From Asterias amurensis (taxonomy: Eukaryota > Echinodermata > Asteroidea > Forcipulatida > Asteriidae): DNA of 64,000 nt. How positions within the stretch are numbered: position 1 is the first letter of the stretch; each line of letters opens with the position of its first letter. Under the pieces are notes generated by a model. It searched no databases. It was not told the DNA's origin and worked only from the letters and a program-made list of their open reading frames with translations. The position numbers and the translations under genes are program-made. Positions 1 through 34,035 of the stretch are shown here, piece after piece. The DNA is taken from assembly GCF_032118995.1 (NCBI RefSeq), contig NC_092663.1, forward strand, positions 248,001-312,000, read 5' to 3'.

Positions 1-3000
1 TATAAACATGTGACAAAGGTATAACATAACAATTGTTGCACACTGTGATTTGGACTTTGCTTCGAGTGTCATTTTCCCTCTCTGATGTACAAAACGCCAT
101 GGAGCCTGTCACAGTATGCAACAATTATAAGCTGTAAAACCTTGAGTGTTGTCCTGAGTGGATTATTTTCTCCAGCCCTTTAAACTTAGTTTAGTCCAAT
201 ATATAACCAGGAACATTGAGTAATAAATCATGTCAAATAGGCCAATAATTTCTTCATTTATAGCAGATAATTATACTGTAGTTCCTAAAAATATGTGCAG
301 AAAGACTTTAGAGAACTTACCAACATGTTGGACATTGTATAGCTTGACAACGGAGCTGTCTCTGGCCAATGAGGCTAGTAACCCATAGCGGGATGGACTC
401 CAAGCTAGCTTAACGATAGGCCGTGGTTCAGTAATTGTTAATACGTATATATCAATAGTTAAGGAGTTGTGGGTACATGTACATGTTAAAGCATTATCAA
501 AGAATCACACATCTAACAGCACAAACAACAATAGACCAAGTTGAATAACAACTTTTTTGCTATGAAAGTCGCCATCTTGTAGGTCAAACCGTATGCGCGT
601 CTAAACGAATACATGAAGCACGCAGCACGCAGTCTAAGGTAGACTAAACACAGTCATCCTCAATACATCTCGCTATAGAACTCTTGCACGCACATCACAC
701 GCAGTGACTGTGCCAAGCTCACCGCTTTGGTGGTGAATTGGTTTATGTACACATCACTGAATAACGCACACAGTGACATTGCCCACCAATGTGGCACATC
801 CAAGATTATTCCGACGATAACGTCAGGTGAATTGGGTCAATACCTTGCTTTCAAACCTATCATATTAAAGGATATTGGTTTATCGAAGTGTCTCCTGTCC
901 CAGATATGAACCTGTGATTCATAATAGGATGCTAGACGATACTCTACTACTGGATCTGCTGTTAATCCATACACTGCCTTAGTTGCTGTCGCACTCTTAT
1001 AACTTGTTGTATCTAGAAACAAAATAGTACAACTCATCAGCACTAATGTTTGTAAGGCATGTCTCATGATCACAGGTTTTGCAACACAAATTCAATATCA
1101 CACAAAAATGTAATCAAAAAGTACATGTAAACCTTCAAATTATGACACTGGTATTAATCTACAACATTATTGTGTATTTGATTCATGAACAAGTGAATGA
1201 AATGTTACCTTTAAAAAAAATCTCCACCATAATAATTGTAACAAATTGAAAATCCTCATTTGATTTTCACTGCAATCAAAGGACAAAATATTTATCATTC
1301 AGCGCACTAATATAATAAAATCTTTTTGGGAGAAGCAAAACAATTAATTAAATTCTCTCAAAAGAAATGAAGATCTAAATCTTCTAAATAACTGTCCTGA
1401 ATGAAACTCTTCTTGTTTTTACTTCACTCTACTTTAGCAACTTATACTTTCGTTTTTTTCTGCTTAAAGGAATGTTACAGAATTGGTAAGAAACAAAAAT
1501 GGTGAGGACACAGATTTACATTAAACTTACACAGTCTAATGATGATGATAGTATTTGATGAGAAACAAATAATCTAATTTCGCGTTTGGAGTTTATCGCT
1601 CAGTGAGCGTTTTAGTCATTTTTGTTTTGTCATCGATGCAATGCAAAATTTGTAATCGTTTTTCACTATTCTCTCGTGACACAGATGGCTGATCGATCTC
1701 AAACTGCTACAGGTTTGTCAGTTGATGTATATAGTGGATTACATAAAGTGCTCACACTGCCAGCAAAACCAATTCAGTGATTTTCCTTTAAAGATACTCA
1801 ACATTTGGAAACAAAATTTAAGATGATAACGTTACTATTGATCTAACCTCTAATATCAAAGATACGAAGGTTCTTATTGCTCACACCAGCTACAATGCAT
1901 TGGGGTTGATGAGGTAGCCATGCCATGGAGTTCAATGCTTCTGCTTGGACTGTGTCAAAAAAAAAAAACATGGATTATTATAATAAGCAATCAAGAGTTC
2001 ACTGATGGATGTAAAAACCTACTCCAGAGTAGGACCTACTCAACTCAAGAGTAGGGTACCTACTCCAGAGTTTTGTTCCTTTACCAGAGTGGGTGCTAAT
2101 CCAGAGTCTGGCCTACTCCAGAGTGGAGCCTAATCCAGAAGGGATGCTACTCCAGAGTGGGCCCTGCTCTAGAGTGGGTGCTACTCCAGAGTGCGTGCCT
2201 ACTCCAGAGTGGGGCCTACTCCAGAGTGGGGCCTACTCCAGAGTGGGACCTACAATTAACTCCAGAGTGGGGCCTACTCCACAGTGGGGCCTACTCCACA
2301 GTGGGTGCTACTCCGGAGTGGAGCCTACTTCGGAGTGGGTGCCTACTCCAGAGTGGGGCCTACTCCAGAGTGGGGCCTACTCCAGAGTGGGGCCTACTCC
2401 AGAGTGGGTGCTACTCCAGAGTGGGTGCCTACTCCAGAGTGGGGCCTACTCCAGAGTGGGGCCTACTCCAGAGTGGGGCCTACTCCAGAGTGGAGCCTAC
2501 TCCAGAGTGGAGCCTACTCCAGAGTGGGTGCCTACTCCAGAGTGGGGCCTACTCCAGAGTGGGGCCTACTCCACAGTGGGGCCTACTCCAGAGTGGGGCC
2601 TACTCCACAGTGGGGCCTACTCCACAGTGGGTGCTACTCCAGAGTGGGTGCCTACTCCAGAGTGGGGCCTACTCCAGAGTGGGGCCTACTCCAGAGTGGG
2701 GCCTACTCCAGAGTGGGGCCTACTCCAGAGTGGGGCCTACTCCACAGTGGGGCCTACTCCACAGTGGGTGCTACTCCAGAGTGGGTGCCTACTCCAGAGT
2801 GGGGCCTACTCCAGAGTGGGGCCTACTCCAGAGTGGGGCCTACTCCAGAGTGGGGCCTACTCCAGAGTGGGGCCTACTCCAGAGTGGAGCCTACAATTAA
2901 CTCCAGTGTGGGGCCTACTCCACAGTGGGGCCTACTCCACAGTGGGGCCTACTCCAGAGTGGGGCCTACTCCAGAGTGGGGCCTACTCCAGAGTGGGGCC

Positions 3001-6000
3001 TACTCCAGAGTGGGGCCTACTCCAGAGTGGGGCCTACTCCACAGTGGGGCCTACTCCAGAGTGGGGCCTACTCCAGAGTGGGGCCTACTCCACAGTGGGT
3101 GCTACTCCACAGTGGGGCCTACTCCAGAGTGGGTGCTACTCCACAGTGGGGCCTACTCCAGAGTGGGTGCTACTCCACAGTGGGGCCTACTCCAGAGTGG
3201 GGCCTACTCCACAGTGGGGCCTACTCCACAGTGGGTGCTACTCCACAGTGGGGCCTACTCCAGAGTGGGTGCTACTCCACAGTGGGGCCTACTCCACAGT
3301 GGGGCCTACTCCACAGTGGGGCCTACTCCACAGTGGGTGCTACTCCACAGTGGGGCCTACTCCAGAGTGGGTGCCTACTCCAGAGTGGAGCCTACAATTA
3401 ACTCCAGTGTGGGGCCTACTCCACAGTGGGGCCTACTCCAGAGTACGTGAATGGGCAGTCGCTTAAGCGATCATGCTGAATATAAAATTTGTGCAGCCAT
3501 GTGGTATCGTAGTCACGCAACACATCAATCATGTATGCACACAGGGTGGCTTCTAAACGTAGAGCAAGTTAGTGCTCTAGTCAATATATATAGATTAGCT
3601 CTTTTAGAGTACAGGCCTAGTTCACATTACATGATGTAGAGCTACTTACCCATCTCACTAACAGGCCGGAAGGCAGATTGAGGGGTACTATTCGATACAA
3701 AACGAGACTTCTCTGAAGATGTTGTCAAGCCAGTTCCAGCTATTATGCAGTTCAACAAAATAAATAATAGAAAAAGAAATATCAAACGCTTCAACCCTTC
3801 AAGTGATTTAAAAACAAAAACAGTCAGGCATTATTTTGAAATAGCAAGTATAGCCTTCAGGTTGAAAAAAACTAATGAAACCACATTCTTTCTTTTTTCA
3901 AAAGCTGTCATATGAGTTCCATTGTACAGGTCTTGCATGGTGTCATGTCTACCTACAGAGTTTGTACATGTATTTGTCACACTGGTTTTGCATTTAAATA
4001 TCATACACAAAACAGCTGAATAATAGCAACGGGAGACTTTCGGGACGCTTGGAGGCAGCAGACTTACCGAGTAAAATCCATTGTTGTCGATAACGTGCGC
4101 ATGCTCAGATCTACATGTATATAGGCAATAGACTTTTACCTGGTAAGTCTGCTGCCACCTAGCGTTCCAAAGTCTCCTATTGATTTGACTTACTTGTTTG
4201 TACACTAACATCATAGACAGCCATGCAATAGTCAGTTCTGTATCTATCAAAACCAGCAGCTAACTGAAGAGAAACAGAAATACTGATATTTATAATAGGT
4301 CGAATAGGTTTCCTGGTGCAGTGTTTCTTGGGTGACACAGCAGACACACACCACGGTGTTTTGTACATCCGAGGGAAAAAATGGCACCTGGAGCAAAGCC
4401 AAGAGTGCCATTTGCCCCTGGAGTTGTACAAAACTAGTGGACCCCTAAAACAGCATGCAACAAATGTTTTGCAGGAGGGGCAACAGGGAAACAAACATTA
4501 TAAAGTAAAATAAATTATGTCTCTTTATTAATTGATTGTTGAAAATTTCATTTTGCTGAACAAATTCAATCGCTTTTAAACAGGCAATTCCCCATTTGAA
4601 TTTGAATAATTTGGGTTGAAGATCTGTATTCTGATCTCGTCTTTGGTACAGGAAAGAAAACTCCTCTTTGGATGTGTTTTTGTTGTCATCTTTAACATTA
4701 TTACAAGGAAACTGGCACAGTTAAAATAAGAGAGGAAGAACAACCGAACAAACTTTAACAACAATAGCTGTCATTAACACAAATATTGCTTTACACTATG
4801 AAAATATTTGTAAGCAGTAAAGCAAACATTGTATCCCACCAGGATCAGTTTGGTTTAAAGGTAAATAGGTAATGTCAGCAAGTTAAACCATTCAATGATT
4901 AGTTCTCAAACACAACAACAAGACTCTTAAACTGTTTTCATTTGCAAAGTTATTTATACGTCAGTAGACAAACGCTGCATCATGAATGTGCTAAAGCCAA
5001 TATTTTGTAATATTCTTCACGATCACAAATGAAACACTATGTGAATTTAACATATTTATTGTGCCATGAAGGTTACCACTCACCCATTTCGGTTCCACAG
5101 TGTTCCAGGCCAGACTAGTACACATCTTGTTGTGCTTAACTGGGAATTCAGTCCCTACTAAGCCCATCTGAGAGGAGGTACATGTAGGGTCTACCAAAAA
5201 GGCAGTCAAGATGACCTTACCGCTTGATAAGCCAACCGCTATTATGTCATCAGACGACTGCTTAGGACACCAGCAAAAACACTGACAAAAACAAAGACAA
5301 ATATCATAAATCTTTCTTATTTTTTGAGTTTTTACATGAAAATAGAAAACAAGACTGAGATGACTGAGTACTACCGTTCTGATTAGTAATATTACATGGT
5401 TCATGCAGAGCCTACAGGTAGAAAGATTCACAAGTTTCTTGCTTCAGGATACATGTATCATGACTTTTCACAATACAAACAAATCTTGGTGTTGGACACA
5501 GAAATGATCCTGGTAGTGTGGACTGACCTTTTCACACTACAACTTTTCAATATGGTGTCAATCTGGATAGAGTGCTTTAATTGTGTTGAGACCAACCCTG
5601 CTCGGGAGGTGGGTTGAGATATCATGATCCGGGTTAATTTTCGGAAATGAGCCTTGTAAAAAAATCGCTGCAAAGCATCACTATGCGTTACACGCACCAA
5701 GATGCATCATGATTCACTATGTTGCGTTACGACGCGTCCCACTTTGATCCGTGTAAGACCTTTCAGTGTGAAACTTGTGCACATTACACGGATCAAAAGT
5801 TAGACGTGTAACACAGAAACTAGCACAAAAATGAAGCAGTTTGTAATTGTAACCGTGTTGATTTACAGAGTCAACATGGACCCTATCTGGATAAGTTTTG
5901 ACACGGATCAAAAGTCGATTGTGTGAAAAGGCCTTCAGATTCTAACCCAATATAGAATAATAATAATTTTAAGTTTTTATATAACACTTTTTCACCCCCA

Positions 6001-8701
6001 AAGGATGTCCCAAAGCGCTTCAAATTATTACCCCTGGTCACTGGGCCTTAAATCAATCCTTTAACTATCTCAGCAGACTAGGGAGTATAGAGCCTTGTGC
6101 AACAAATCTGCCCTACTTGGCTAAATCAATCACAAGAACAATATCTGCCCTCACAGGGAATTTGGGTCATCTCGTACCCAAGTCAACTCGTACCCAAGTC
6201 AAAGTCAACTCGTACCCAAGTCAACTCGTACCCAAGTCATCTCGTACCCAAGTCAACTCGTACCCAAGTCAACTCGTACCCGAGTCAACTCGTACCCAAG
6301 TCAACTCGTACCCAAATAAATTTTTACAAAATTTTGGAGTTTCAACTCGTACAGATAAATATTGTGGTTTATTTGATTTTTGTTATGTAAATCATATATT
6401 TTTTATTCATTGTTGTAATGATTTCTTTTTTCATGTTGCAGATACATGTAAAAGATAATCAGAACATACGCAGATGAAGGAATTGAATGAATTTTTATCA
6501 TGAAATTTTCTAATGAGAACCCTTTAACAAGAAAAACACGAAACGTTTGCGTACTATACATTGTATGTTTTTATATTGAATGAGTTTGTTTTGAAGCAAA
6601 AAAGAGAAGAACTTGAACCTTAAAAAAAATTAACCCTTTTTATGTCTCATATGTCTTTATAAGCACCAAACACCGAAAAAAAGAAAAAAGAAAAAAAAGG
6701 CAGAAGAGAGATGAACATCTAGCATTATTTAAAATGAAATTCGTGAGAAGGTATTGTTTTTAATAAAAGTGAGTAGAACATCAATTTTATTTCCCGTCGC
6801 TTATAAAATCACGTCGCACGGATTCTCCGTATCGGCATACAACTTACGTTATACGGTACGAGTTGACTTGGGTACGAGTTGACCTGGGTACGAGTTGACT
6901 TGGGTACGAGTTGACTTGGGTACGAGTTGACTTGGGTATAATAATTTGGGTACGAGTTGACTTGGGTTCGAGTTGACTTGGGTACGAGTTGACCTGTTTC
7001 GCTCACAGGTACCCATTTACCCCTGGAAGGAGAGAAGCAGTTACAGTTAAGTGTCTTGCTCAGGGACACAAGTGTCACGACCGGGATTCAAACCCACACT
7101 CTGCTGAACAGAATCAGCAGAGCTTGAATTCGGTGCTATTATCCGCTCGGCCATGTACACACCATACCCTGACGCTTTTGCCACCAGAGTTGAGTCATAC
7201 ACAAAGATTGCTGGCCAAACTTGTGAGTTTACCATTGAAGTTGCTTTCTCCTGGGTATGAGCAGAGTGTACTGTTTAAAGCGTTGAGACCACAACAGCTC
7301 TTTTCAGAGCCATAACACTCCTCCCAAACCTGCAAGTTCACTAGTTAAAGTTACTTGTTATTCAAAATGACGATTGAGTTGTTACTACTCACTCTGATTA
7401 GCTGTAGATCACTCTTAGTGCTGACATACAAGTCTGTCTTACTTGCTTGTAATCTAGCATACATATTACTATCCTGACTGATCAGCTGTATCTGAGACTG
7501 GCTGGATGATAGTAAATCAGATTCCACCATATAAAGGTTCATATCATAACGATCCGTATTCAAGGCTACAAACACATCAGGGTCAGTAGGGGACCACTGT
7601 AGGTCCCACTTAGCACCTGTAGTAGGAAGGAATGAATTAACATTTAAAAACTTTAGTAGCCATTCATAAATACCTAGATAAATAGATAGTTTCGCTATTC
7701 CTATTGGTGGAGAGCGCGTCACGTGGGTGTGTATAAACCTTTGTTTATGACCGGTAAACCTTTGTTAATTCATGGGCGTGACACACGACCTTGCACCTGT
7801 TCTTTTAAGACAGTTTCTTCATTCCTATTGGTCGAGAGCAACAGCTGAAACAGTTGTGTCACATCACGCGATACGCGCGACGCGCACAGCATTCCCTTAT
7901 AAGGAGTTGTTTACCCGAGGGCGGCGGAGGGATTTACCATTTCATAGCTGGAGGGGTGTTGTGTTGAAAGAAATCACTTAACAATTATAATGTTTGCATT
8001 TATTTTAGTTTTTTACCAAAGAGTGATGATGTTGTTGACTGAAAAGGTATTTATGAATGGGAATCAAAGTGTGTTGAATCGGTTTGATAATTTACCTCGA
8101 CTTCGTCTGAGTAAAATTTTCAAGAACCAGGCCTCGTTGGGATTAAACCAGTAGTTGAAAACCTCTTCACCACACATTGATTCCCATATTAATAAAGAAT
8201 GCTACACACGGGTCAATCTGTATCTTTCAAAATTTCATATTTTACTTCCTCGTCAATGGAGATCCTAAAATATTCTAGAAGTGGCACAATTCAATAGGGG
8301 ACTTTCGGACACCTGGTGGCGGCAGATTTACCAGGTAAAATCCATTGTTCTCGTTAGCGCATGGTCAGAACTACGTATCCGTTCAAGTTAGCCAAGTTTT
8401 GGATTTTTTTTTGCAAAGTATAGGTCCTAAGTCCAGGTATGTGTCCCTTGAGGGCGCTAGCATGTTTTTCCGACAAGCATAAACCCCTCTCATTCAACGA
8501 GAGAGACCCCGTGTTTTATACACTGACAGGGTTCTCCAAAACATTCTCAAAATACCAAATGCACCCGGACAAAAAATGCCGCGCCAGGACAAAATCGTTG
8601 TCCCGAGACAAAACATTTCAAAAAACACATAGGCCCCTATAAAACAAACACAAACAATTTAATTCAGAAGCCTTATCCTTCAACATACCTGAGGAAGTCA
8701 T
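1..8701 (-). CDS. MIOS: MIOS (GATOR2 complex WD40 subunit), 5' part, runs off the left edge
   Basis: WD40 scaffold of GATOR2, which relays amino-acid sufficiency to mTORC1 at the lysosome. Coding exons on the minus strand: 8701-8689, 7616-7393, 5281-5084, 4263-4194, 3739-3650, 1949-1848, 1012-876, 444-321; the rest lies left of the window. All phases join, giving about 319 codons. The 13-nt first exon encodes MTSSG and ends in CAG/GTATGT, matching the short N-terminus before the first blade. Blade signatures seen: [108 protein letters not shown]. These follow vertebrate MIOS blade by blade. The C-terminal zinc-finger half is not in the window. One junction (876/444) is AT-AC rather than GT-AG. 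Introns carry SINE, fold-back, MITE and minisatellite DNA. Identity is confident; the start exon rests on phase and motif only. Confidence 0.9.
445..875 (-). other. Predicted U12-type AT-AC intron in MIOS
   Basis: Read on the minus strand, the exon ends ...FDKP and the next bases are ATATCCTTT, the canonical minor-spliceosome 5' site. TCCTTAAC, the U12 branch consensus, lies at 465-458, and the intron ends AC at 446-445, about 14 nt beyond the branch A. The downstream exon then reads VLTITEPRP, so [13 protein letters not shown] continues the MIOS blade without gap and in phase 0. No AG acceptor exists nearby: the first upstream AG (near 514) is followed by an in-frame TGA. Confidence 0.85.
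2019..3445 (+). repeat. 17-bp minisatellite array in a MIOS intron
   Basis: About 84 tandem copies of a 17-bp unit close to cctactccagagtgggg, with interspersed variants (cacagt for cagagt; tgctactcc; an 18-bp form). The core actccagagt is a near-palindrome. Copies at the left edge (2019-2095) are most diverged, so the array probably grew from the right. The plus strand has no stop in any frame over long stretches, producing overlapping open frames with a 17-residue period. It lies wholly in the MIOS intron 1950-3649. Confidence 0.95.
4030..4180. mobile_element. Palindromic MITE in MIOS intron, next to a splice donor
   Basis: Arms of about 45 bp: the left reads gggagactttcgggacgctt and onward to a gtaaaa near 4076, the right is its imperfect reverse complement ending near 4177. 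The right end lies 12-16 bp from the GTAAGT donor of the MIOS exon 4263-4194. A one-armed relative lies at 8297-8345. Confidence 0.75.
5955..7165 (-). mobile_element. tRNA-derived SINE, split by a fold-back element
   Basis: On the minus strand the head near 7160 has an A-box-like TGGCCGAGCGG and a B-box-like GGTTTGAATCCC (near 7085-7096), followed by a body that continues beyond the insertion at 6158-7001 to a tail near 5955. A second copy at 38213-38515 reads through the same point uninterrupted, which shows what the SINE looked like before the insertion. Confidence 0.75.
6158..7001. mobile_element. Fold-back transposon with arms made of a 16-bp tandem repeat
   Basis: The left arm (about 6167-6316) is roughly nine copies of gtcaactcgtacccaa; the right arm (about 6856-6993) is eight to nine copies of the reverse complement. 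The roughly 540-bp AT-rich centre codes for nothing. The 8-bp duplication ctcacagg lies at 6150-6157 and 7002-7009, and removing one copy plus the element restores the SINE. An 8-bp duplication fits hAT-like or FB-type integration. Confidence 0.85.
7650..8200 (-). repeat. Interspersed repeat related to the element at 56714-57501
   Basis: The segment contains ctattcctattggtggagag and, further right, gaatgggaatcaaagtgtg, ttgaatcggttt and an aggcctcgttgggattaaac-like stretch. The same blocks occur in reverse complement near 57060-57420. It lies in MIOS intron 1. No clean ends were defined. Confidence 0.55.
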
Positions 8702-11900: not shown

Positions 11901-14900
11901 GCTTGTAAAGGGGGTAACTCTGTAAGGGGTGACTTTGTAAGGGGGCGACTTTGTCAGGGGGTAACTTTGTCAGGGGGCGACTTTGTAAAGGGGGTAACTC
12001 TGTAATGGGCGACTTTGTAAAGGGGGTAACTCTGTAAGGGGTGACTTTGTAAGGGGGTAACTCTGTACGGGGCGACTTTGTAAAGGGGGTAACTCTGTAA
12101 GGGGTGATTTGTAAAGGTGGTAACTCTGTAAAAGGTGACTTAGTAAATGGGGTAACTATGTAAGGGGCGACTTTGTAAAGGGGTGACTTTGTAAGGGGGT
12201 GACTTTGTAAAGGGGGTAACTCTGTTAGGGGCGACCTTGTAAAGGGGGTAACTCTGTAAGGGGCGACTTTGTAAAGGGGGTAACTCTGTAAGAGGCGATT
12301 TTGTAAGAGGTGACTTTGCAAAGGGGGTGACTTTGTAAGGGGGTGACTTTGTAAAGGGGGTGACTTTGTAAGGGGGTGACTTTGTAAAGGGAGTGACTTT
12401 GTAAGGGGGTGACTTTGTAAAGGGGGTAACTCTGTAAGGGGCGACTTTGTAAAGGGGGTGACTTTGTAAGGGGCGACTTTGTAAAGGGGGTGACTTTGTA
12501 AGGGGCGACTTTGTAAGGGGGTAACTTTGTCAGGGGGCGACTATGTAAAGGGGGTAACTCTGTTAAGGGCGACTTTGTAAAGGGGGTAACTCTGTAAGGG
12601 GCGACTTTGTAAAGGGGTGACTTTGTAAGGGGCGACTTTGTAAAGGGGGTGACTTTGTAAGGGGCGACTTTGTAAGGGGGTAACTTTGTCAGGGGGCGAC
12701 TTTGTAAAGGGGGTAACTCTGTAAGGGGCGACTTTGTAAAGGGGGTAACTCTGTAAGTGGCGACTTTGTAAAGGGGTGACTTTGTAAGGGGCGACTTTGT
12801 AAGGGGGTAACTTTGTCAGGGGGCGACTTTGTAAAGGGGGTAACTCTGTAAGGGGCGACTTTGTAAAGGGGGTGACTTTGTAAGGGGCGACTTTGTAAAA
12901 GGGTGACTTTGTAAGGGGCGACTTTGTAAAGGAGGTGACTTTGTAAGGGGCGACTTTGTAAAGGGGGTGACTTTGTAAGGTGCGACTTTGTAAGGGGGTA
13001 ACTTTGTCAGGGGGCGACTTTGTAAAGGAGGGTAATTCTGTCAGGGGGTTACTTTGTAAAGGGGGTGACTTTGTAAGGGGGTAACTTTGTCAGGGGGCGA
13101 CTTTGTAAAGGGGGTAACTCTGTAAGGGGCGACTTTGTCAGGGGGTTACTTTGTAAGGGGGTAACTTTGTTAGGGGGTGACTTTGTAAAGGGGTGACTTT
13201 GTAAGGGGCGACTTTGTAAAGGGGGTAACTCTGTAAGGGGGTGACTTTGTAAGGGGGCGACTTTGTCAGGGGGTAACTTTGTCAGGGGGCGACTTTGTAA
13301 AGGGGGTAACTCTGTAAGGGGCGACTTTGTAAAGGGGGTAACTCTGTAAGGGGTGACTTTGTAAGGGGTTAACTCTGTACGGGGCGACTTTGTAAAGGGG
13401 GTAACTCTGTAAGGGGTGATTTGTAAAGGGGGTAACTCTGTAAGGGGTGACTTAGTAAATGGGGTAACTATGTAAGGGGCGACTTTGTAAAGGGGTGACT
13501 TTGTAAGGGGGTGACTTTGTAAAGGGGGTAACTCTGTTAGGGGCGACTATGTAAAGGGGGTAACTCTGTAAGGGGCGACTTTGTAAAGGGGGTAACTCTG
13601 TAAGGGGCGATTTTGTAAGAGGTGACTTTGCAAAGGGGGTGACTTTGTAAGGGGGTGACTTTGTAAAGGGGGTGACTTTGTAAGGGGGTGACTTTGTAAA
13701 GGGAGTGACTTTGTAAGGGGGTGACTTTGTAAAGGGGGTAACTCTGTAAGGGGCGACTTTGTAAAGTGGGTGACTTTGTAAGGGGCGACTTTGTAAGGGG
13801 GTAACTTTGTCAGGGGGCGACTATGTAAAGGGGGTAACTCTGTTAGGGGCGACTTTGTAAAGGGGGTAACTCTGTAAGGGGCGACTTTGTAAAGGGGTGA
13901 CTTTGTAAGGGGCGACTTTGTAAAGGGGGTGACTTTGTAAGGGGCGACTTTGTAAGGGGGTAACTTTGTCAGGGGGTGACTTTGTAAAGGGGGTAACTCT
14001 GCAAGGGGCGACTTTGTAAAGGGGGTAACTCTGTAAGTGGCGACTTTGTAAAGGGGTGACTTTGTAAGGGGCGACTTTGTAAGGGGGTAACTTTGTCAGG
14101 GGGCGACTTTGTAAAGGGGGTAACTCTGTAAGGGGCGACTTTGTAAAGGTGGTGACTTTGTAAGGGGCGACTTTGTAAAAGGGTGACTTTGTAAGGGGCA
14201 ACTTTGTAAAGGGGGTGACTTTGTAAGGGGCGACTTTGTAAAAGGGGTAACTCTGTAAGGGGCGACTTTGTAAAGGAGGTGATTTTGTAAGGGGCGACTT
14301 TGTAAAGGGGGTGACTTTGTAAGGTGCGACTTTGTAAGGGGGTAACTTTGTCAGGGGGCGACTTTGTAAAGGAGGGTAATTCTGTCAGGGGCGACTTTGT
14401 AAAGGGGGTGACTTTGTAAGGGGGTAACTTTGTCAGGGGGCGACTTTGTAAAGGGGGTAACTCTGTAAGGGGCGACTTTGTAAAGGGGGTAACTCTGTAA
14501 AAGGCGACTTTGTAAAGGGGGTGACTTTGTAAGGGGCGACTTTGTAAGGGGGTAACTTTGTCAGGGGCGACTTTGTAAAGGGGGTAACTCTGTAAGGGGC
14601 GACTTTTTAAAAGGGGGTAACTCTGTAAGGGGCGACTTTGTAAAGGGGGTAACTCTGTAAGGGGCGACTTTGTAAAGGGGGTGACTTTGTAAGGGGCGAC
14701 TTTGTAAAGGGGGAGACTTTGTAAGGGGCGACTTTGTAAGTGGGTAATTTTGTAAGGGGCGACATTGTAAAGGGGGTAACTCTGTAAGGGGCTACTTTGT
14801 AAAGGGGGTGACTTTGTAAGGGGCGACTTTGTAAAGGGGTGACTTTGTAAGGGGCGACTTTGTAAGGGGGTAACTTTGTCAGGGGGCGACTTTGTACAGG

Positions 14901-17900
14901 GGTAACTCTGTAAGGGGCGACTTTGTAAAGGGGGTAACTCTGTAAGGGGTGACTTTGTAAGGGGGTAACTCTGTAAGGGGCGACTTTGTAAAGGGGGTAA
15001 CTCTGTAAGGGGTGACTTTGTAAAGGGGGTAACTCTGTAAGGGGTGACTTTGTAAAGGGGGTAACTATGTAAGGGGCGACTTTGTAAAGGGGGTAACTCT
15101 GTAAGGGGCGACTTTGTAAAGGGGGTAACTCTGTAAGGGGTGACTTTGTAAAGGGGGTAACTCTGTAAGGGGCGACTTTGTAAAGGGGGTGACTTTGTAA
15201 GGGGCGACTTTGTAAAAGGGTGACTTTGTAAGGGGCGACTTTGTAAAGGAGGTGACTTTGTAAGGGGCGACTTTGTAAAGGGGGTGACTTTGTAAGGTGC
15301 GACTTTGTAAGGGGGTAACTTTGTCAGGGGGCGACTTTGTAAAGGAGGGTAATTCTGTCAGGGGGTTACTTTGTAAAGGGGGTGACTTTGTAAGGGGGTA
15401 ACTTTGTCAGGGGGCGACTTTGTAAAGGGGGTAACTCTGTAAGGGGCGACTTTGTCAGGGGGTTACTTTGTAAGGGGGTAACTTTGTTAGGGGGTGACTT
15501 TGTAAAGGGGTGACTTTGTAAGGGGTGACTTTGTAAAGGGGGTAACTCTGTAAGGGGGTGACTTTGTAAGGGGGCGACTTTGTCAGGGTGTAACTTTGTC
15601 AGGGGGCGACTTTGTAAAGGGGGTAACTCTGTAAGGGGCGACTTTGTTAAGGGGGTAACTCTGTAAGGGGTGACTTTTTAAGGGGGTAACTCTGTACGGG
15701 GCGACTTTGTAAAGGGGGTAACTCTGTAAGGGGTGATTTGTAAAGGGGGTAACTCTGTTAGGGGTGACTTAGTAAATGGGGTAACTATGTAAGGGGCGAC
15801 TTTGTAAAGGGGTGACTTTGTAAGGGGGTGACTTTGTAAAGGGGGTAACTCTGTTAGGGGCGACTTTGTAAAGGGGGTAACTCTGTAAGGGGCGACTCTG
15901 TACAGGGGCTAACTCTGTAAGGGGCGATTTTGTAAGAGGTGACTTTGCAAAGGGGGTGACTTTGTAAGGGGGTGACTTTGTAAAGGGGGTGACTTTGTAA
16001 GGGGGTGACTTTGTAAAGGGAGTGACTTTGTAAGGGGGTGACTTTGTAAAGGGGGTAACTCTGTAAGGGGCGACTTTGTAAAGGGGGTGACTTTGTAAGG
16101 GGCGACTTTGTAAAGGGGGTGACTTTGTAAGGGGCGACTTTGTAAGGGGGTAACTTTGTCAGGGGGCGACTTTGTAAAGGGGGTAACTCTGTAAGGGGCG
16201 ACTTTGTAAAGGGGGTAACTCTGTAAAAGGCGACATTGTAAAGGGGGTGACTTTGTAAGGGGCGACTTTGTAAGGGGGTAACTTTGTCAGGGGCGACTTT
16301 GTAAAGGGGGTAACTCTGTAAGGGGCGACTTTGTAAAGGGGGTAACTCTGTAAGGGGCGACTTTGTAAAGGGGGTAACTCTGTAAGGGGCGACTTTGTAA
16401 AGGGGGTAACTCTGTAAGTGGCGACTTTGTAAAGGGGTGACTTTGTAAGGGGCGACTTTGTAAGGGGGTAACTTTGTCAGGGGGCGACTTTGTAAAGGGG
16501 GTAACTCTGTAAGGGGCGACTTTGTAAAGGGGGTGACTTTGTAAGGGGCGACTTTGTAAAAGGGTGACTTTGTAAGGGGCAACTTTGTAAAGGGGGTGAC
16601 TTTGTAAGGGGCGACTTTGTAAAAGGGGTAACTCTGTAAGGGGCGACTTTGTAAAGGAGGTGATTTTGTAAGGGGCGACTTTGTAAAGGGGGTGACTTTG
16701 TAAGGTGCGACTTTGTAAGGGGGTAACTTTGTCAGGGGGCGACTTTGTAAAGGAGGGTAATTCTGTCAGGGGCGACTCTGTAAAGGGGGTGACTTTGTAA
16801 GGGGGTAACTCTGTAAAAGGCGACTTTGTAAAGGGGGTGACTTTGTAAGGGGCGACTTTGTAAGGGGGTAACTTTGTCAGGGGCGACTTTGTAAAGGGGG
16901 TAACTCTGTAGGGGCGACTTTGTAAAGGGGGTAACTCTGTAAAAGGCGACTTTGTAAAGGGGGTGACTTTGTAAGGGGCGACTTTGTAAGGGGGTAACTT
17001 TGTCAGGGGCGACTTTGTAAAGGGGGTAACTCTGTAAGGGGCGACTTTGTAAAGGGGGTAACTCTGTAAGGGGCGACTTTGTAAAGGGGGTAACTCTGTA
17101 AGGGGCGACTTTGTAAAGGGGGTGACTTTGTAAGGGGCGACTTTGTAAAGGGGGAGACTTTGTAAGGGGCGAACTTGTAAGTGGGTAATTTTGTAAGGGG
17201 CGACATTGTAAAGGGGCTAACTCTGTAAGGGGCTACTTTGTAAAGGGGGTGACTTTGTAAGGGGCGACTTTGTAAAGGGGTGACTTTGTAAGGGGCGACT
17301 TTGTAAGGGGGTAACTTTGTCAGGGGGCGACTTTGTACAGGGGTAACTATGAAGGGGCGACTTTGTAAAGGGGGTAACTCTGTAAGGGGTGACTTTGTAA
17401 GGGGGTAACTCTGTAAGGGGCGACTTTGTAAAGGGGGTAACTCTGTAAGGGGTGACTTTGTAAAGGGGGTAACTCTGTAAGGGGTGACTTTGTAAAGGGG
17501 GTAACTATGTAAGGGGCGACTTTGTAAAGGGGTAACTCTGTAAGGGGCGACTTTGTAAAGGGGGTAACTCTGTAAGGGGTGACTTTGTAAAGGGGGTAAC
17601 TCTGTAAGGGGCGACTTTGTAAAGGGGGTGACTTTGTAAGGGGCGACTTTGTAAAAGGGTGACTTTGTAAGGGGCGACTTTGTAAAGGAGGTGACTTTGT
17701 AAGGGGCGACTTTGTAAAGGGGGTGACTTTGTAAGGTGCGACTTTGTAAGGGGGTAACTTTGTCAGGGGGCGACTTTGTAAAGGAGGGTAATTCTGTCAG
17801 GGGGTTACTTTGTAAAGGGGGTGACTTTGTAAGGGGGTAACTTTGTCAGGGGGCGACTTTGTAAAGGGGGTAACTCTGTAAGGGGCGACTTTGTCAGGGG

Positions 17901-20900
17901 GTTACTTTGTAAGGGGGTAACTTTGTTAGGGGGTGACTTTGTAAAGGGGTGACTTTGTAAAGGGGGTGACTTTGTAAGGGGCGACTTTGTAAAAGGGGTA
18001 ACTCTGTAAGGGGCGACTTTGTAAAGGAGGTGATTTTGTAAGGGGCGACTTTGTAAAGGGGGTGACTTTGTAAGGTGCGACTTCGTAAGGGGGTAACTTT
18101 GTCAGGGGGCGACTTTTTAAAGGAGGGTTATTCTGTCAGGGGCGACTTTGTAAAGGGGGAGACTTTGTAAGGGGGTAACTTTGTCAGGGGGCGACTTTGT
18201 AAAGTGGGTAACTCTGTAAGGGGCGACTTTGTAAAGGGGGTAACTCTGTAAAAGGCGACTTTGTAAAGGGGGTGACTTTGTAAGGGGCGACTTTGTAAGG
18301 GGGTAACTTTGTCAGGGGCGACTTTGTAAAGGGGGTAACTCTGTAAGGGGCGACTTTGTAAAGGGGGTAACTCTGTAAGGGGCGACTTTGTAAAGGGGGT
18401 AACTCTGTAAGGGGCGACTTTGTAAAGGGGGTGACTTTGTAAGGGGCGACTTTGTAAAGGGGGAGACTTTGTAAGGGGCGAACTTGTAAGTGGGTAATTT
18501 TGTAAGGGGCGACATTGTAAAGGGGGTAACTCTGTAAGGGGCTACTTTGTAAATGGGGTGACTTTGTAAGGGGCGACTTTGTAAAGGGGTGACTTTGTAA
18601 GGGGCGACTTTGTAAGGGGGTAAATTTGTCAGGGGGCGACTTTGTACAGGGGTAACTCTGTAAGGGGCGACTTTGTAAAGGGGGTAACTCTGTAAGGGGT
18701 GACTTTGTAAGGGGGTAACTCTGTAAGGGGCGACTTTGTAAAGGGGGTAACTCTGTAAGGGGTGACTTTGTAAAGGGGGTAACTCTGTAAGGGGTGACTT
18801 TGTAAAGGGGGTAACTATGTAAGGGGCGACTTTGTAAAGGGGGTAACTCTGTAAGGGGCGACTTTGTAAAGGGGGTAACTCTGTAAGGGGTGACTTTGTA
18901 AAGGGGGTAACTCTGTAAGGGGCGACTTTGTAAAGGGGGTGACTTTGTAAGGGGCGACTTTGTAAAAGGGTGACTTTGTAAGGGGCGACTTTGTAAAGGA
19001 GGTGACTTTGTAAGGGGCGACTTTGTAAAGGGGGTGACTTTGTAAGGTGCGACTTTGTAAGGGGGTAACTTTGTCAGGGGGCGACTTTGTAAAGGAGGGT
19101 AATTCTGTCAGGGGGTTACTTTGTAAAGGGGGTGACTTTGTAAGGGGGTAACTTTGTCAGGGGGCGACTTTGTAAAGGGGGTAACTCTGTAAGGGGCGAC
19201 TTTGTCAGGGGGTTACTTTGTAAGGGGGTAACTTTGTAAGGGGTGACTTTGTAAAGGGGGTAACTCTGTAAGGGGGTGACTTTGTAAGGGGGCGACTTTG
19301 TCAGGGGGTAACTTTGTCAGGGGGCGACTTTGTAAAGGGGGTAACTCTGTAAGGGGCGACTTTGTTAAGGGGGTAACTCTGTAAGGGGTGACTTTTTAAG
19401 GGGGTAACTCTGTACGGGGCGACTTTGTAAAGGGGGTAACTCTGTAAGGGGTGATTTGTAAAGGGGGTAACTCTGTTAGGGGTGACTTAGTAAATGGGGT
19501 AACTATGTAAGGGGCGACTTTGTAAAGGGGTGACTTTGTAAGGGGGTGACTTTGTAAAGGGGGTAACTCTGTTAGGGGCGACTTTGTAAAGGGGGTAACT
19601 CTGTAAGGGGCGACTTTGTAAAGGGGCTAACTCTGTAAGGGGCGATTTTGTAAGAGGTGACTTTGCAAAGGGGGTGACTTTGTAAGGGGGTGACTTTGTA
19701 AAGGGGGTGACTTTGTAAGGGGGTGACTTTGTAAAGGGAGTGACTTTGTAAGGGGGTGACTTTGTAAAGGGGGTAACTCTGTAAGGGGCGACTTTGTAAA
19801 GGGGGTGACTTTGTAAGGGGCGACTTTGTAAAGGGGGTGACTTTGTAAGGGGCGACTTTGTAAGGGGGTAACTTTGTCAGGGGGCGACTTTGTAAAGGGG
19901 GTAACTCTGTAAGGGGCGACTTTGTAAAGGGGGTAACTCTGTAAAAGGCGACTTTGTAAAGGGGGTGACTTTGTAAGGGGCGACTTTGTAAGGGGGTAAC
20001 TTTGTCAGGGGCGACTTTGTAAAGGGGGTAACTCTGTAAGGGGCGACTTTGTAAAGGGGGTAACTCTGTAAGGGGCGACTTTGTAAAGGGGGTAACTCTG
20101 TAAGGGGCGACTTTGTAAAGGGGGTGACTTTGTAAGGGGCGACTTTGTAAAGGGGGAGACTTTGTAAGGGGCGACTTTGTAAGTGGGTAATTTTGTAAGG
20201 GGCGACATTGTAAAGGAGGTAACTCTGTAAGGGGCGACTTTGTAAAGGGGGTAACTCTGTAGGGGTGACTTTGTAAGGGGTGACTTTGTAAAGGGGGTAA
20301 CTCTGTAAGGGGCGACTTTGTAAAGGGGGTAACTCTGTAAGGGGCGACTTTGTAAAGGGGGTAACTCTGTAAGGGGCGACTTTGTAAAGGGGGTAACTCT
20401 GTAAGGGGCGACTTTGTAAAGGGGTAACTCTGTAAGGGGCGACTTTGTAAAGGGGGTAACTCTGTAAGGGGGTGACTTTGTAAAGGGGGTAACTCTGTAA
20501 GGGGCGACTTTGTAAAGGGGTGATTTTGTAAGGGGGTGACTTTGTAAGGGGGTGACTCTGTAAGGGGGTGACTTTGTAAAGGGGGTAACTCTGTAGGGGT
20601 GACTTTGTAAAGGGGGTAACTCTGTAAGGGGCGACTTTGTAAAAGGGGTGACTTTGTAAGGGGGTGACTTTGTAAAGGGGGTAACTCTGTTAGGGGCGAC
20701 TTTGTAAAGGGGGTTACTCTGTAAGAGGCGACTTTGTAAAGGGGGTAACTCTGTAAGGGGCGATTTTGTAAGGGGGTGACTTTGTAAAGGGGGTGACTTT
20801 GTAAAGGGAGTGACTTTGTAAGGGGGTGACTTTGTAAAGGGGGTAACTCTGTAAGGGGCGACTTTGTAAAGGGGGTGACTTTGTAAGGGGCGACTTTGTA

Positions 20901-21376
20901 AAGGGGGTGACTTTGTAAGGGGCGACTTTGTAAGGGGGTAACTTTGTCAGGGGGCGACTTTGTAAAGGGGGTAACTCTGTAAGGGGCGACTTTGTAAAGG
21001 GGGTAACTCTGTAGGGATGACTTTGTAAGGGGTGACTTTGTAAAGGGGGTAACTCTGTAAGGGGCGACTTTGTAAAGGGGGTAACTCTGTAAGGGGCGAC
21101 TTTGTAAAGGGGGTAACTCTGTAAGGGGCGACTTTGTAAAGGGGGTAACTCTGTAAGGGGCGACTTTGTAAAGGGGGTAACTCTGTAAGGGGCGACTTTG
21201 TAAAGGGGGTAACTCTGTAAGGGGGTGACTTTGTAAAGTGGGTAACTCTGTAAGGGGCGACTTTGTAAAGGGGGTGACTTTGTAAGGGGGTAACTTTGTA
21301 AGGGGGTGACTCTGTAAGGGGGTGACTTTGTAAGGGGGTAACTTTGTAAGCGGGTGACTCCGTAAAGGGGGTGACC
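11901..21376. repeat. Large satellite array, 16-bp monomer, 32-bp dimer, higher-order structure
   Basis: Nearly 9.5 kb of monomers of the type gggggtgactttgtaa, often alternating with gggggtaactctgtaa to give a 32-bp dimer; roughly 590 monomers. Rare variants recur at set spacings: gacttagtaaatgg is found near 12137, 13449, 15766 and 19484; two 204-bp blocks at 17003 and 18312 translate identically and a near copy is at 20005. This shows block duplication on top of monomer amplification. The minus strand lacks stops in all frames, giving open frames up to 605 codons rich in PLQS, YKVAP and TKSPLTELP; they have no support as genes. Confidence 0.97.
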
Positions 21377-27200: not shown

Positions 27201-30200
27201 CCCCACTCTTGGATTGAAACCTGATGGAATCACACCTGTTACCAACAACGTAAAACAAGGCTGCTGCAGATGCTAGGGTCGCATGGCCACAAAGATTGAC
27301 CTCATTGGTGGGAGTGAACCAACGAATCTTCACCCGACTTGCTGTATGAAAGAAAAAGGATGTTAATAGGCAACAGAATCCCATTACGTCAAATAAATGC
27401 ACATCTAGTAACACGCCCCGGTACGCAGAGCATTCACACACATGTTTTGGGTTTTTTGTTTATGCAAGTCGCCAGACACACAAATCCTGAAGGCCACTCC
27501 AAGGTGTGGGCTACAATTCAAGTATTTTTCCGGGGGTAGTTGCCACCTACTGACTCCTGTGGCTGAATTAGGGTTACCCCATTTACATTCCACACGAATG
27601 TAGGCTTGGGTATCATCCATTAGAAGCCTGGCTGGTAGAGCAAAAAGCACTACCTCCCCAACTTTACGAAAGTTACATAAATGATCGACTCTTGTATTTA
27701 CCATTCTGAAATGATTCTTCCGGTTCGACCGTCTGTAAATAAGCCGTCTCTGATAGATTCATCTCAGCTGCAATTTTCATCTTAGTCTCATCTGGAATAT
27801 CCTAAGTAGACAAAGTACAATAAAAAATGTAACGACAAGAATAAAATTGCTCCAAGTCCAGTAATCACAGACAAGTTTAGTTTCATTGTTTTCTAGATTA
27901 GTGGATGTACATCATGAGACATGACTCCACATGATGAGTCAGGTCAGAGTGAATTAACAAAAACTAATGATTTAGCCTTATACTTACACTTACAGGCCAA
28001 CATTCCTCATGGTAAGGCGTCGGGCTGTGACGGTTTAAGTTCTTTTGTTATTAAACAGGCTAGGTATTCATTAGCGAAGCCATTAGCCGAGCTGTTCAAT
28101 ATGTCTTTTGCGTTAGGAATTTTTCCTGACGGGTTAAAAATAGGCAAAGTTACTCCAATACATAAAAAGGGCAAGAAGCATGATATTGAAAACTATAGAC
28201 CCATCACAGTAGTATCTATATTCTCAAAAACTTTTGAAAAGTTAATTTATTCTAGATTAAACTCTTTGATAAACAAAAACAATATTTTTTCTGAATCCCA
28301 ATTTGGATTTAGAGAAAATCACTCAACTGACCTAGCAATTTCTTATGTAGTTAATAAATTATCACAAGCTATTGATGACAAGAACATCTCTATTGGTATA
28401 TTTTTGGATTTGTCCAAGGCTTTCGACACAGTTAATCATGAAATTTTGCTTCGTAAATTAGAACATTACGGTATCCGTGGAATAGCCTTGGACTTGTTCA
28501 AGAGTTACTTATCAAATAGAAAACAATTGTTTCATATAATGCCGTCAATTCTATTGATCAACCTATTTTTTGTAGTGTTCCACAAGGTTCCGTGTTAGGT
28601 CCCTTGCTTTTTATTATTTACATCAATGACATCTGTAACTCATCTGATATTATTTCATTTTGCTTATTTGCAGATGACACAAGTTTATTGTACAGTCATA
28701 ATAATGTAGATGTCGCAATTCAGAACCTTAACTTGGAACTTTATAAAATAAGTACTTGGCTTTTAGCAAATAAGTTATGTATTAATGTACTAAAATCTAA
28801 CTATGTTATATTTTGTGCAAATCAATATAAATACACTTAATCTATTCCCTTAGTTCTAAATGGTATCAACTTGAATCAACTGAAAGTCACGAAATTCTTA
28901 GGTATATATACTGATGAACATTTAACTTGGAAAAATCATATCAAAGATGTATCAATTAAAATATCTAAACATATAAGTATAATGAATCGCTTAAAGTTTT
29001 TCCTACCTAGTAATATCTTATTGACCATCTATAATTCTTTTGTTCTGCCGTATTTAAACTATTGCATTCTCATTTTGGGGTGTTCTTCAACTCAGTGTAA
29101 CAAACTATTTACTTTACAAAAGCGGGCTGTTCGAATCATTTCTAATGCTGGTTATCGTGATCATTCAGCTCCACTTTTTGAACAATTTAAACTTCTAAAA
29201 TTAAATGATCTGTACCGCCTTAACTTAGGTAAGTTTATGTATAATTACAACCATAATGCATTACCCTCTTGTTTTAACTCTTTCTTTACCTTAACTTCAA
29301 ATATTCATTCGTATGATACTCGAAGTACTCGTAAGAAAAATCTTTATGTCCATTTCAACAGAACATCTTTATTTAGAAATAGTCTTGTCCAACGTGGTAC
29401 TACATATTGGAATAGTCTCAGTTCACTTAAATCTGCACTTACTTTGTCAAAATTTGCAAAAAAATTAAAAGCAGTCCTTAATTCTTAGTTAAAGTTATGA
29501 TATATTTTCCGGATGATGTTTGTCTTTGTACCCATACGAGTACATGTTTTGTATGTAAGTCAGTGTTGTGGTAGTCTGTTGGTGTATTTGTTTGTTTTGT
29601 TCGTTTTTTGTCTGTCCGTAGGTACGGGAACAAAAGCCTTGCTTCACCCTATGCCTAGATGTTGTCCTGTTTGTCATTATCTACTCAACTTCGGTGTAAA
29701 TTGTTATTGTCTTTACTTCATCTGTGGTTTGTCATTATTTATTCATTACCATGTATATTAACTTTAATGATGTACACAAATGTAACTTTATGGCAACATT
29801 GAAATAAATGTATTGAAATGAATGACTGTCTTATCAACCGCCGAAAACACACACAATTTATTTTCGTGACAAGAAAAAAAACTTGCTTAGGACTACCTAG
29901 TACTCTAAATTTCCTACATTTTCCCAACAGCAGCAAGTCTCACTCATGCCCCCCCCCAAAAAAAAAAATAAATAAATAAAATAATAATAATAATAATAAT
30001 AACAAATAAATAAATAAATAAATAAATCATTATTCATTGTCAATTCACTTTCTCTTTTTTCAGTCTTTGCTTTTTGGGAAGTACACCATTTTGATTTCAT
30101 TCCTCTGTTGTGTTTGCTACCTAAAACTTGTTAATATAATTAAAGTTAAGCTCACAATTTATAAGTCGTGACTTGCTCTATGTATGTAGGATGATAAAGT

Positions 30201-31493: not shown

Positions 31494-32186
31494 GTGAAAG
31501 TGAATGTTCTGATAACACTGTATTAAATATTGGACCCATGGGTTTTTAGCAATGGTTGGTAGGAGGATAGAGAAAAGTAAGAATTGTTTTGGGGGTTGAA
31601 GGTGGTGAGTGGTGCACTCCAGAAGTGGCAGTACGACTTGTACATTGGCAGTGGGGCTGTCTTGAGTTACCTTACTTTATTTTGTTCATGAAAATTGGTT
31701 CAGTATCTGTACTGAAACCGTTAGCTGCTGTGCAAACTCAATCTGGTGGATATATACAGCACACGGCACAGACACCAAGCAGGCAGCAAGCGGAGAGATA
31801 CCCTTTATTAGATGTGGCAACTCAAGATTTTGTTGAAATCAACAGGTCAAATATCAAGGTCACAGACAGTACTCAGTCATTGGATCATATTTTATTATAC
31901 AGCCAGAATCAGGATACGGTTTGCATATTCTTAACTGTTGGCTCTTGCGTTATCTAAGTTAAATCGTCTTATATTACCACTTCTTTTCCTCTATTTCAGT
32001 GAGGCAATCTAGCTGTGGGGTTCACCGATCAATGAAGTCGTAGCAGAAGACCGCGACAAAGGAAACGTGAATCTAGAGGCCGACAAATGACACAAATAGA
32101 AGATGAGCAGAGAACTACAAAGTTGATCTACTAGCTACTGACTGCTGGAGTTTGTGTTTGGTTTTTAAGTGATTACATATCACATC

Positions 32187-33275
32187 ATGCCTTTGGAGTT
32201 TGTAAACAAGCCTGTGCCAATTACTCGTGTAGAGCATCTCAGGCCTGACTCTTTCAAACAGAGATACAGAAACAAACATCCAATCATTTTAACAAAAATC
32301 ATTTCTGATTGGTTGCCAGTAACAAAATGGACAACTTCTTATCTGCAAGAGGCCCTCGAACAAACCTGTCCCAATGGTGACCTTCAAGTGTTTTCCTCAC
32401 TTGACAACAAGTTGTTTATAAATAACCCTGAGGTAGTACAAACAGTAAACATTTCCCCTAAAGACTTTCTCAACCTTGTTTTTGACCACCAAGAGCAGTC
32501 TGCAAAACAGCGGTTTTACTTGAGGACCCATTCAATGCCAGACATCTTATTCAATGATATTAATATTCCTGCTCAGGTTAAGTCACTATTGGATGTGTTT
32601 TGTTCTAATGAAGACGAAAACACAGGAATGAATAGAGCAGTGGAAGTTCAGTGTCCGACTAAAACTGAAAATGTTAAAGAACGCACAGAGCAGTCTGCTT
32701 TATGTAGTCCTGATGAGGGACTCTCTGCATGGGAACAAATGCTATCATGTGATGTCCATGATGAAAATTCAGTTAGTATTGAACTTGAAGATTCAGCTAA
32801 TATTCAACAGAAACTGCCACATTATCAAAATGTGTCTCTGATGGACACTTCCTGGCAAAAGTTGCAGGCCCGTATCTTTAATCAGCCTACAATGCAGCTT
32901 TGGGTTGGAACAAAAGGAAATGTTACACCACTACACTACGATCGCAATCATGGTTTACTCGCGCAAATTGTTGGTCGAAAAGAGCTCATTCTCTTCTCAC
33001 ATGAGGATACACCCAACTTATATCCTCATGTTAGTTATTCAGAGCGTGCTCACACAAGCCGAGTAGATCTCAGGAAAGTTTATGCGGAAGAAGATAAACG
33101 GTTTCCTAGGTTGAAGAATGCACAACCCTATACATGTACTTTACAACCAGGGGAACTTTTGTACATGCCCCCATTCTGGTGGCATGATGTGACGTCATTA
33201 GATGATTGTGTTTCTGTGACTCTACCATGGGATATGGATAGCAGTGAAACTGTACCAGGATGTATGCTTGCATAA
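32187..33275 (+). CDS. Cupin-8/JmjC-type Fe(II)/2-oxoglutarate oxygenase, intronless
   Basis: Single-exon frame of 362 residues from ATG 32187 to TAA 33275. The N-terminal part (about 1-130) reads MPLEFVNKPVPITRVEH, then a cupin-8-like KHPIILTKIISDWLPVTKW; an acidic, low-complexity insert spans about 135-215; the C-terminal double-stranded beta-helix holds the metal triad as His250-Tyr-Asp252 in VTPLHYDRNHGLLAQIVGRK and His333 in MPPFWWHDV. FDLYPH-like EDTPNLYPHVSY and LQPGELLYMPPFWWH are typical of the JMJD5/HSPBAP1/TYW5/FIH group. Members hydroxylate protein or tRNA side chains; the substrate here is unknown. The last nine codons and the stop fall inside a 38-bp tandem repeat. A 5' non-coding exon is likely. 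Confidence 0.85.
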   Translation: MPLEFVNKPVPITRVEHLRPDSFKQRYRNKHPIILTKIISDWLPVTKWTTSYLQEALEQTCPNGDLQVFSSLDNKLFINNPEVVQTVNISPKDFLNLVFDHQEQSAKQRFYLRTHSMPDILFNDINIPAQVKSLLDVFCSNEDENTGMNRAVEVQCPTKTENVKERTEQSALCSPDEGLSAWEQMLSCDVHDENSVSIELEDSANIQQKLPHYQNVSLMDTSWQKLQARIFNQPTMQLWVGTKGNVTPLHYDRNHGLLAQIVGRKELILFSHEDTPNLYPHVSYSERAHTSRVDLRKVYAEEDKRFPRLKNAQPYTCTLQPGELLYMPPFWWHDVTSLDDCVSVTLPWDMDSSETVPGCMLA

Positions 33276-33360
33276 TGTATCTTTAAACTGTACCAGGATG
33301 TATGCTTACATAATATATCTTTAAACTGTACCAGGATGTATGCTTACATAATGTATCTTT
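33247..33360 (+). repeat. 38-bp tandem repeat, three copies, spanning a stop codon
   Basis: Unit aaactgtaccaggatgta plus 20 more bases, starting at 33247, 33285 and 33323. The first copy supplies the last codons and the TAA of the cupin gene; copies two and three are in the 3' UTR. A fourth unit is only partial (from 33361). Confidence 0.95.
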
Positions 33361-34035
33361 AAACTGAAAACAGTTCTCTTAGCCTTTTTGCAAGATCTAA
33401 ATCCTTGTGCGTAAACATTTTCCTAACCATTTTCCTAAATGTATCCTTGAATTGAATTGAATTGAATTGAACCATATCGGTTTCATAACAAATGGTTTCA
33501 AAAGCTTTTCATGGACCAACTCGACTGATCCAAGGCAACGTGTCCCTCTGAAGGGAAATTTGTTACTGAATAGCAGGAGTGAGGGAAAATTACACTGCAC
33601 AAATCACAAACACTGTTCTATTTTGTACTTTCACACTTGAGTTCAATTGTTTATGTTTTTTTCCAATACCTTTCATATATATCTATAGCACGTTACTCTG
33701 ACTTTAACCAAGCACAGATATACATTTATAGGGGACGATGAATACAGTAGGACTACACATTGTTTACATAATATGTACACTTGTCCACATTACACTCTTT
33801 TGTTTACAGTAAACTGCGCATTGTAGATTGTAGGTATACACAAAATTGTAAGTCATTGACTAGAATATTAATAGTGCCCATCAACTCAAAGGATTGTCAG
33901 CCCTATAGTGTTGCCAACAATGCAATTATACCTGTCCTTTAGCGCCCGAAATTAAAATTTAGTTTTGGGTGTTAAAGGATAATGGTAATACAGGTATTGG
34001 TTATTTTTAAAAAAGCCAGGGCTCATGCCAACAAG
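33361..34035. other. 3' flank of the cupin gene, non-coding
   Basis: AT-rich DNA with a tgaat/gaatt run near 33450-33470. No gene was recognised; polyadenylation signals may lie here but none could be assigned. Confidence 0.4.

Follow-up and report, generated by a model that had tools for sequence, protein, structure and literature searches.

The results indicate that nucleotides 875 to 445 of the minus strand of the window (the whole 64,000-nucleotide stretch of DNA that was analysed) are very probably a functional U12-type AT-AC intron in the sea-star gene for MIOS, a subunit of the GATOR2 complex. Minor introns are rare, are dispersed over many animal genes, and are excised by a second (minor) splicing machine. 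We favour the U12-type reading because the signals are exact and suitably spaced, because the protein is continuous across the resulting join, and because every GT-AG or GC-AG pair tested fails. In the window, the minus strand carries eight coding exons from the 5' part of MIOS, which together provide 319 codons without a stop; the window's MIOS stops short, the sequence ending within the beta-propeller. The features of the gene and of the intron are:

8689..8701, minus strand: first coding exon of MIOS, ATGACTTCCTCAG (MTSSG, as in Asterias rubens)
7393..7616, minus strand: MIOS exon 2
5084..5281, minus strand: MIOS exon 3
4194..4263, minus strand: MIOS exon 4
3650..3739, minus strand: MIOS exon 5
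1848..1949, minus strand: MIOS exon 6
876..1012, minus strand: MIOS exon 7, ending ...RRHFDKP
445..875, minus strand: probable U12-type AT-AC intron of MIOS, 431 nt, phase 0
867..875, minus strand: predicted 5' splice site ATATCCTTT, a 9/9 match to the U12 consensus
458..465, minus strand: predicted branch-point element TCCTTAAC, with the presumed branch adenosine at 459
445..446, minus strand: terminal AC, with the presumed branch adenosine 14 nt upstream
321..444, minus strand: MIOS exon 8, beginning VLTITEPRP, with a GTAAGT donor next, at 320

The seven introns of this model comprise six GT-AG introns and one AT-AC intron. An additional exon candidate, 7329..7233, broke the frame and was dropped from the model; exon 2 joins exon 3 directly. 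The product of joined exons 7 and 8 matches the Pfam family MIOS_WD40 (PF21720) with an E value of 2.4e-28, and of its 87 residues, 3-86 align with PDB chains named MIOS; with the same query, PDB chains labelled WDR24 in the file score above the MIOS-named chains. Together with 97% identity to a MIOS-A-like protein of Asterias rubens, the Pfam match and the PDB MIOS chains bear out the identity of the gene as MIOS, as first proposed in a preliminary description of this DNA made from its letters.

Re-reading of the sequence confirms the letters and coordinates given in that description for the start of the intron, the branch element, and the AC 14 nt beyond. On the minus strand, 875..445 reads ATATCCTTTAAT...CTCCTTAACTATTGATATATAC. 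The nonamer at 875..867 conforms to the pattern expected of a U12-type 5' site, [AG]TATCCTTT, and occurs as a single copy in the 64-kb window with the two strands counted. Near the intron end, the octamer of the branch element is exact, and the nonamer that contains it, CTCCTTAAC, differs by one letter from the consensus, TTCCTTAAC. The 14-nt distance from the branch adenosine to the intron end lies towards the long side for U12-type introns. The AC at 446..445 restores the MIOS protein, as judged by the match to A. rubens MIOS and by the alignment of the PDB MIOS chains.

Joining 876 to 444 in phase 0 gives an uninterrupted MIOS reading frame. A search with the spliced product returned six relatives at E values of 1e-3 or better among 2277 candidates, all MIOS-like, with BLASTP identities of 97% (Asterias rubens), 74% (Acanthaster planci), 73% (Patiria miniata), 54% (Amphiura filiformis), 42% (Glandiceps talaboti), and 37% (Saccoglossus kowalevskii). 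The residues FDKPVLT span the join free of gaps in 4/4 echinoderm MIOS-like proteins (extended to FDKPVLTI in Acanthaster, Patiria, and Amphiura), and the hemichordate proteins have FEKPVVT (Glandiceps) and FDKPIIT (Saccoglossus) at the same place. The A. rubens MIOS-A-like protein (P0056), an annotated protein that shows the join and not which intron lies there, is the same letter for letter at the join, as expected from the earlier claim that the splice product is continuous with known MIOS; it is 98% identical over the window's 319 residues, differing by six substitutions and by two residues present only in the window's MIOS. This similarity points to a close sea-star relative of A. rubens as the source of the window. 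P0056 also lists PF21719 and PF17034, the alpha-solenoid and the C-terminal zinc domain. Human MIOS aligns through the join, which falls between the equivalents of human P259 and V260, with the nearest gap one residue after VLTITE. In the human gene the corresponding coding exon is probably long and is not known to be interrupted by this intron, a point that plays no part in the argument.

At the intron itself, a 92-residue translation of a 688-base contig (P0001) continues past exon 7 into ISFNMIGLK, like the start of the window's intron. At the level of residues, to which this comparison applies, the intron start is therefore kept in a near relative in a form compatible with ATATCCTTT. Among viral contigs scanned for relatives, 37 stretches fit the pattern and none was confirmed.

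A rival explanation assigns the splicing to the major spliceosome, which would either remove a rare AT-AC intron of the U2 type or use a cryptic GT-AG pair. To assess alternatives of the latter kind, we scanned the 692-nt segment comprising exon 7, the intron, and exon 8 for GT-AG and GC-AG pairs at least 40 nt apart. None of the 1383 pairs in this segment restores the MIOS protein. The reading frame stays open in 41 of the 1383, each time at the cost of 36 nt or more of conserved exon 8; even the smallest loss, 36 nt, removes residues that are kept whole in A. rubens and are similar in other relatives. The statement that no AG acceptor can yield the continuous protein holds: between the nearest intronic AG and the join there are 68 nt, with a stop in frame, and each of the 41 open pairs cuts into exon 8. 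The cryptic pair AAG|GTATTG with GCTTGGAG|TC illustrates the difficulty: it stays in frame, but it retains 32 nt of intron and drops 47 nt of conserved exon 8, and the A. rubens MIOS protein carries the full exon 8. When pairs of all types are considered, including other AT-AC pairs, 129 keep the frame, and only the 875..445 pair neither drops exon nor retains intron, the other in-frame AT-AC pairs adding or dropping residues. Moreover, ATATCCTTT and TCCTTAAC are signals of U12-type and not of U2-type introns, which counts against either form of major-spliceosome splicing. We consider removal by the major spliceosome very unlikely.

Scoring of both sites with U12 matrices, a check that the preliminary description had proposed, agrees with the U12-type reading. 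With approximate matrices, the 5' site reaches 14.1 bits against a maximum of 16.1, and within the final 40 nt of the intron the best branch element reaches 13.6. The other six introns of the MIOS model have 5' scores of -4.6, -22.7, -22.1, -16.8, -17.2, and -21.6 and branch scores of -5.3 to 5.5, as compared to 13.6 for the branch element of the AT-AC intron.

The frequency of the motifs was compared with that in 100 simulated 64-kb windows generated by a first-order Markov (Markov-1) model. The real window contains 2 equally good 5' sites vs. 1.93 expected per simulated window, 1 branch element with a suitable AC or AG vs. 1.25 expected, and 1 pair of 5' site and branch within 10 kb vs. 0.23 expected. 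Unanchored U12 motifs thus are no commoner than chance, and alone they prove little. The intron signal exceeds chance because the motifs sit exactly at conserved exon edges, and not because of their frequency: the 5' site abuts the last conserved codon of exon 7, and the AC abuts the first conserved codon of exon 8. For a 5' motif at a conserved exon edge together with a branch element no more than 40 nt from the next exon, the probability is ~5e-8, before correction for the model's seven introns, in an estimate built on window counts of 4 [AG]TATCCTT and 7 TCCTT[AG]A[CT] on both strands.

These numbers bear also on a second rival explanation, in which the MIOS of the window is either an artefact of assembly or a pseudogene and the motif match arose by chance. 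The expectation of 0.23 unanchored motif pairs per simulated 64-kb window leaves room for such a match, but the anchored value of ~5e-8 speaks against it, as do the 319 open codons, with six substitutions and a two-residue insertion relative to A. rubens, and the GT-AG ends of the six other introns. We regard a pseudogene or artefact as exceedingly improbable.

Returning to the U12-type reading, in the cell the intron is most likely removed by the U11/U12 machinery rather than by the major spliceosome, to judge from its sequence. In minor introns, U11 binds the 5' site, U12 binds the branch element, and U6atac then replaces U11. In MIOS, ATATCCTTT would be the site recognised by U11; U12 would base-pair with TCCTTAAC and leave the adenosine at 459 bulged; U6atac would next take the place of U11 at the 5' site; and ligation of 876 to 444 by the minor spliceosome would give an unbroken MIOS beta-propeller.

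The MIOS intron shares with animal U12-type AT-AC introns the 5' site ATATCCTTT, the branch element TCCTTAAC, and the AC end, and it likewise has a short branch-to-end distance and lacks a long pyrimidine run ahead of its end; apart from its phase, it differs from them in no notable respect. For the wider distribution of such introns we relied on a published survey by Larue and Roy. In this survey, deuterostomes outside the tunicates, with Asterias rubens named, have a minor-intron density approximately that of vertebrates, AT-AC introns make up ~26% of the minor introns of humans, and most species cluster at ~22% for the share of minor introns in phase 0, which makes the phase of the MIOS intron the less frequent one (PMC10639083). 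The phase, like the 14-nt distance from branch to end, is a point against the U12-type reading. On the figures of the survey, there is nothing unusual in a single sea-star gene that carries a minor intron with AT-AC ends in phase 0. A literature search found nothing that connects minor (U12-type) introns with MIOS or GATOR2, and searches for sea star with U12 minor introns and for Strongylocentrotus with U12-type AT-AC introns found none; the supplements of the survey (PMC10639083) may list the MIOS intron.

Provided that the intron is real, the sea star depends on minor splicing to make MIOS. The preliminary description had gone further: its interpretation as a U12-type AT-AC intron in MIOS stands with respect to the signals, the join, and the lack of an AG alternative, but the functional tie that it drew between amino-acid signalling and the capacity for minor splicing does not follow from the presence of one intron. 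A stronger proposal strikes us as highly improbable, namely that the amount of GATOR2 is set by minor splicing that is slow or limiting, that mTORC1 nutrient sensing therefore tracks minor-spliceosome capacity, and that the intron has been kept for this reason. Were the intron regulated, nutrient sensing would be linked to minor splicing; nothing here points that way, and no special regulatory role is indicated. The intron matters as a clear case in which raw sequence, supported by protein comparison, reveals a minor intron, and as a useful check on annotation: a gene finder restricted to GT-AG introns would break MIOS at the AT-AC intron.

Two other introns of MIOS contain tandem repeats. Intron 3649..1950 holds ~78 copies of a 17-base unit (CCAGAGTGGGGCCTACT) at 2084..3444, and spurious long open frames occur there because of this repeat. 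Intron 7392..5282 holds 16-base tandem arrays at 6166..6315 and 6855..6993, 539 bases apart, the units of which are mutually reverse-complementary; the arrays may mark where a mobile element begins and ends. A larger tandem array, ~9.5 kb with a period of 32 and ~296 copies, occupies 11903..21375 and creates spurious open frames of up to 605 codons. At the gathering threshold, Rfam yielded no RNA family within the 64-kb window. A reverse transcriptase fragment (PF00078) followed by an open frame without a Pfam match, at 27921..29488, is probably a non-LTR retrotransposon. An open frame of 368 codons at 32169..33275 encodes a JmjC/cupin-8 protein, with brittle star, crinoids, hemichordates, and amphioxus among the relatives named (39-45% identity), and a 38-base tandem repeat at 33247..33366 runs across its stop codon. 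An open frame of the C2orf69 family (PF10561) lies on the minus strand at 45616..46305.
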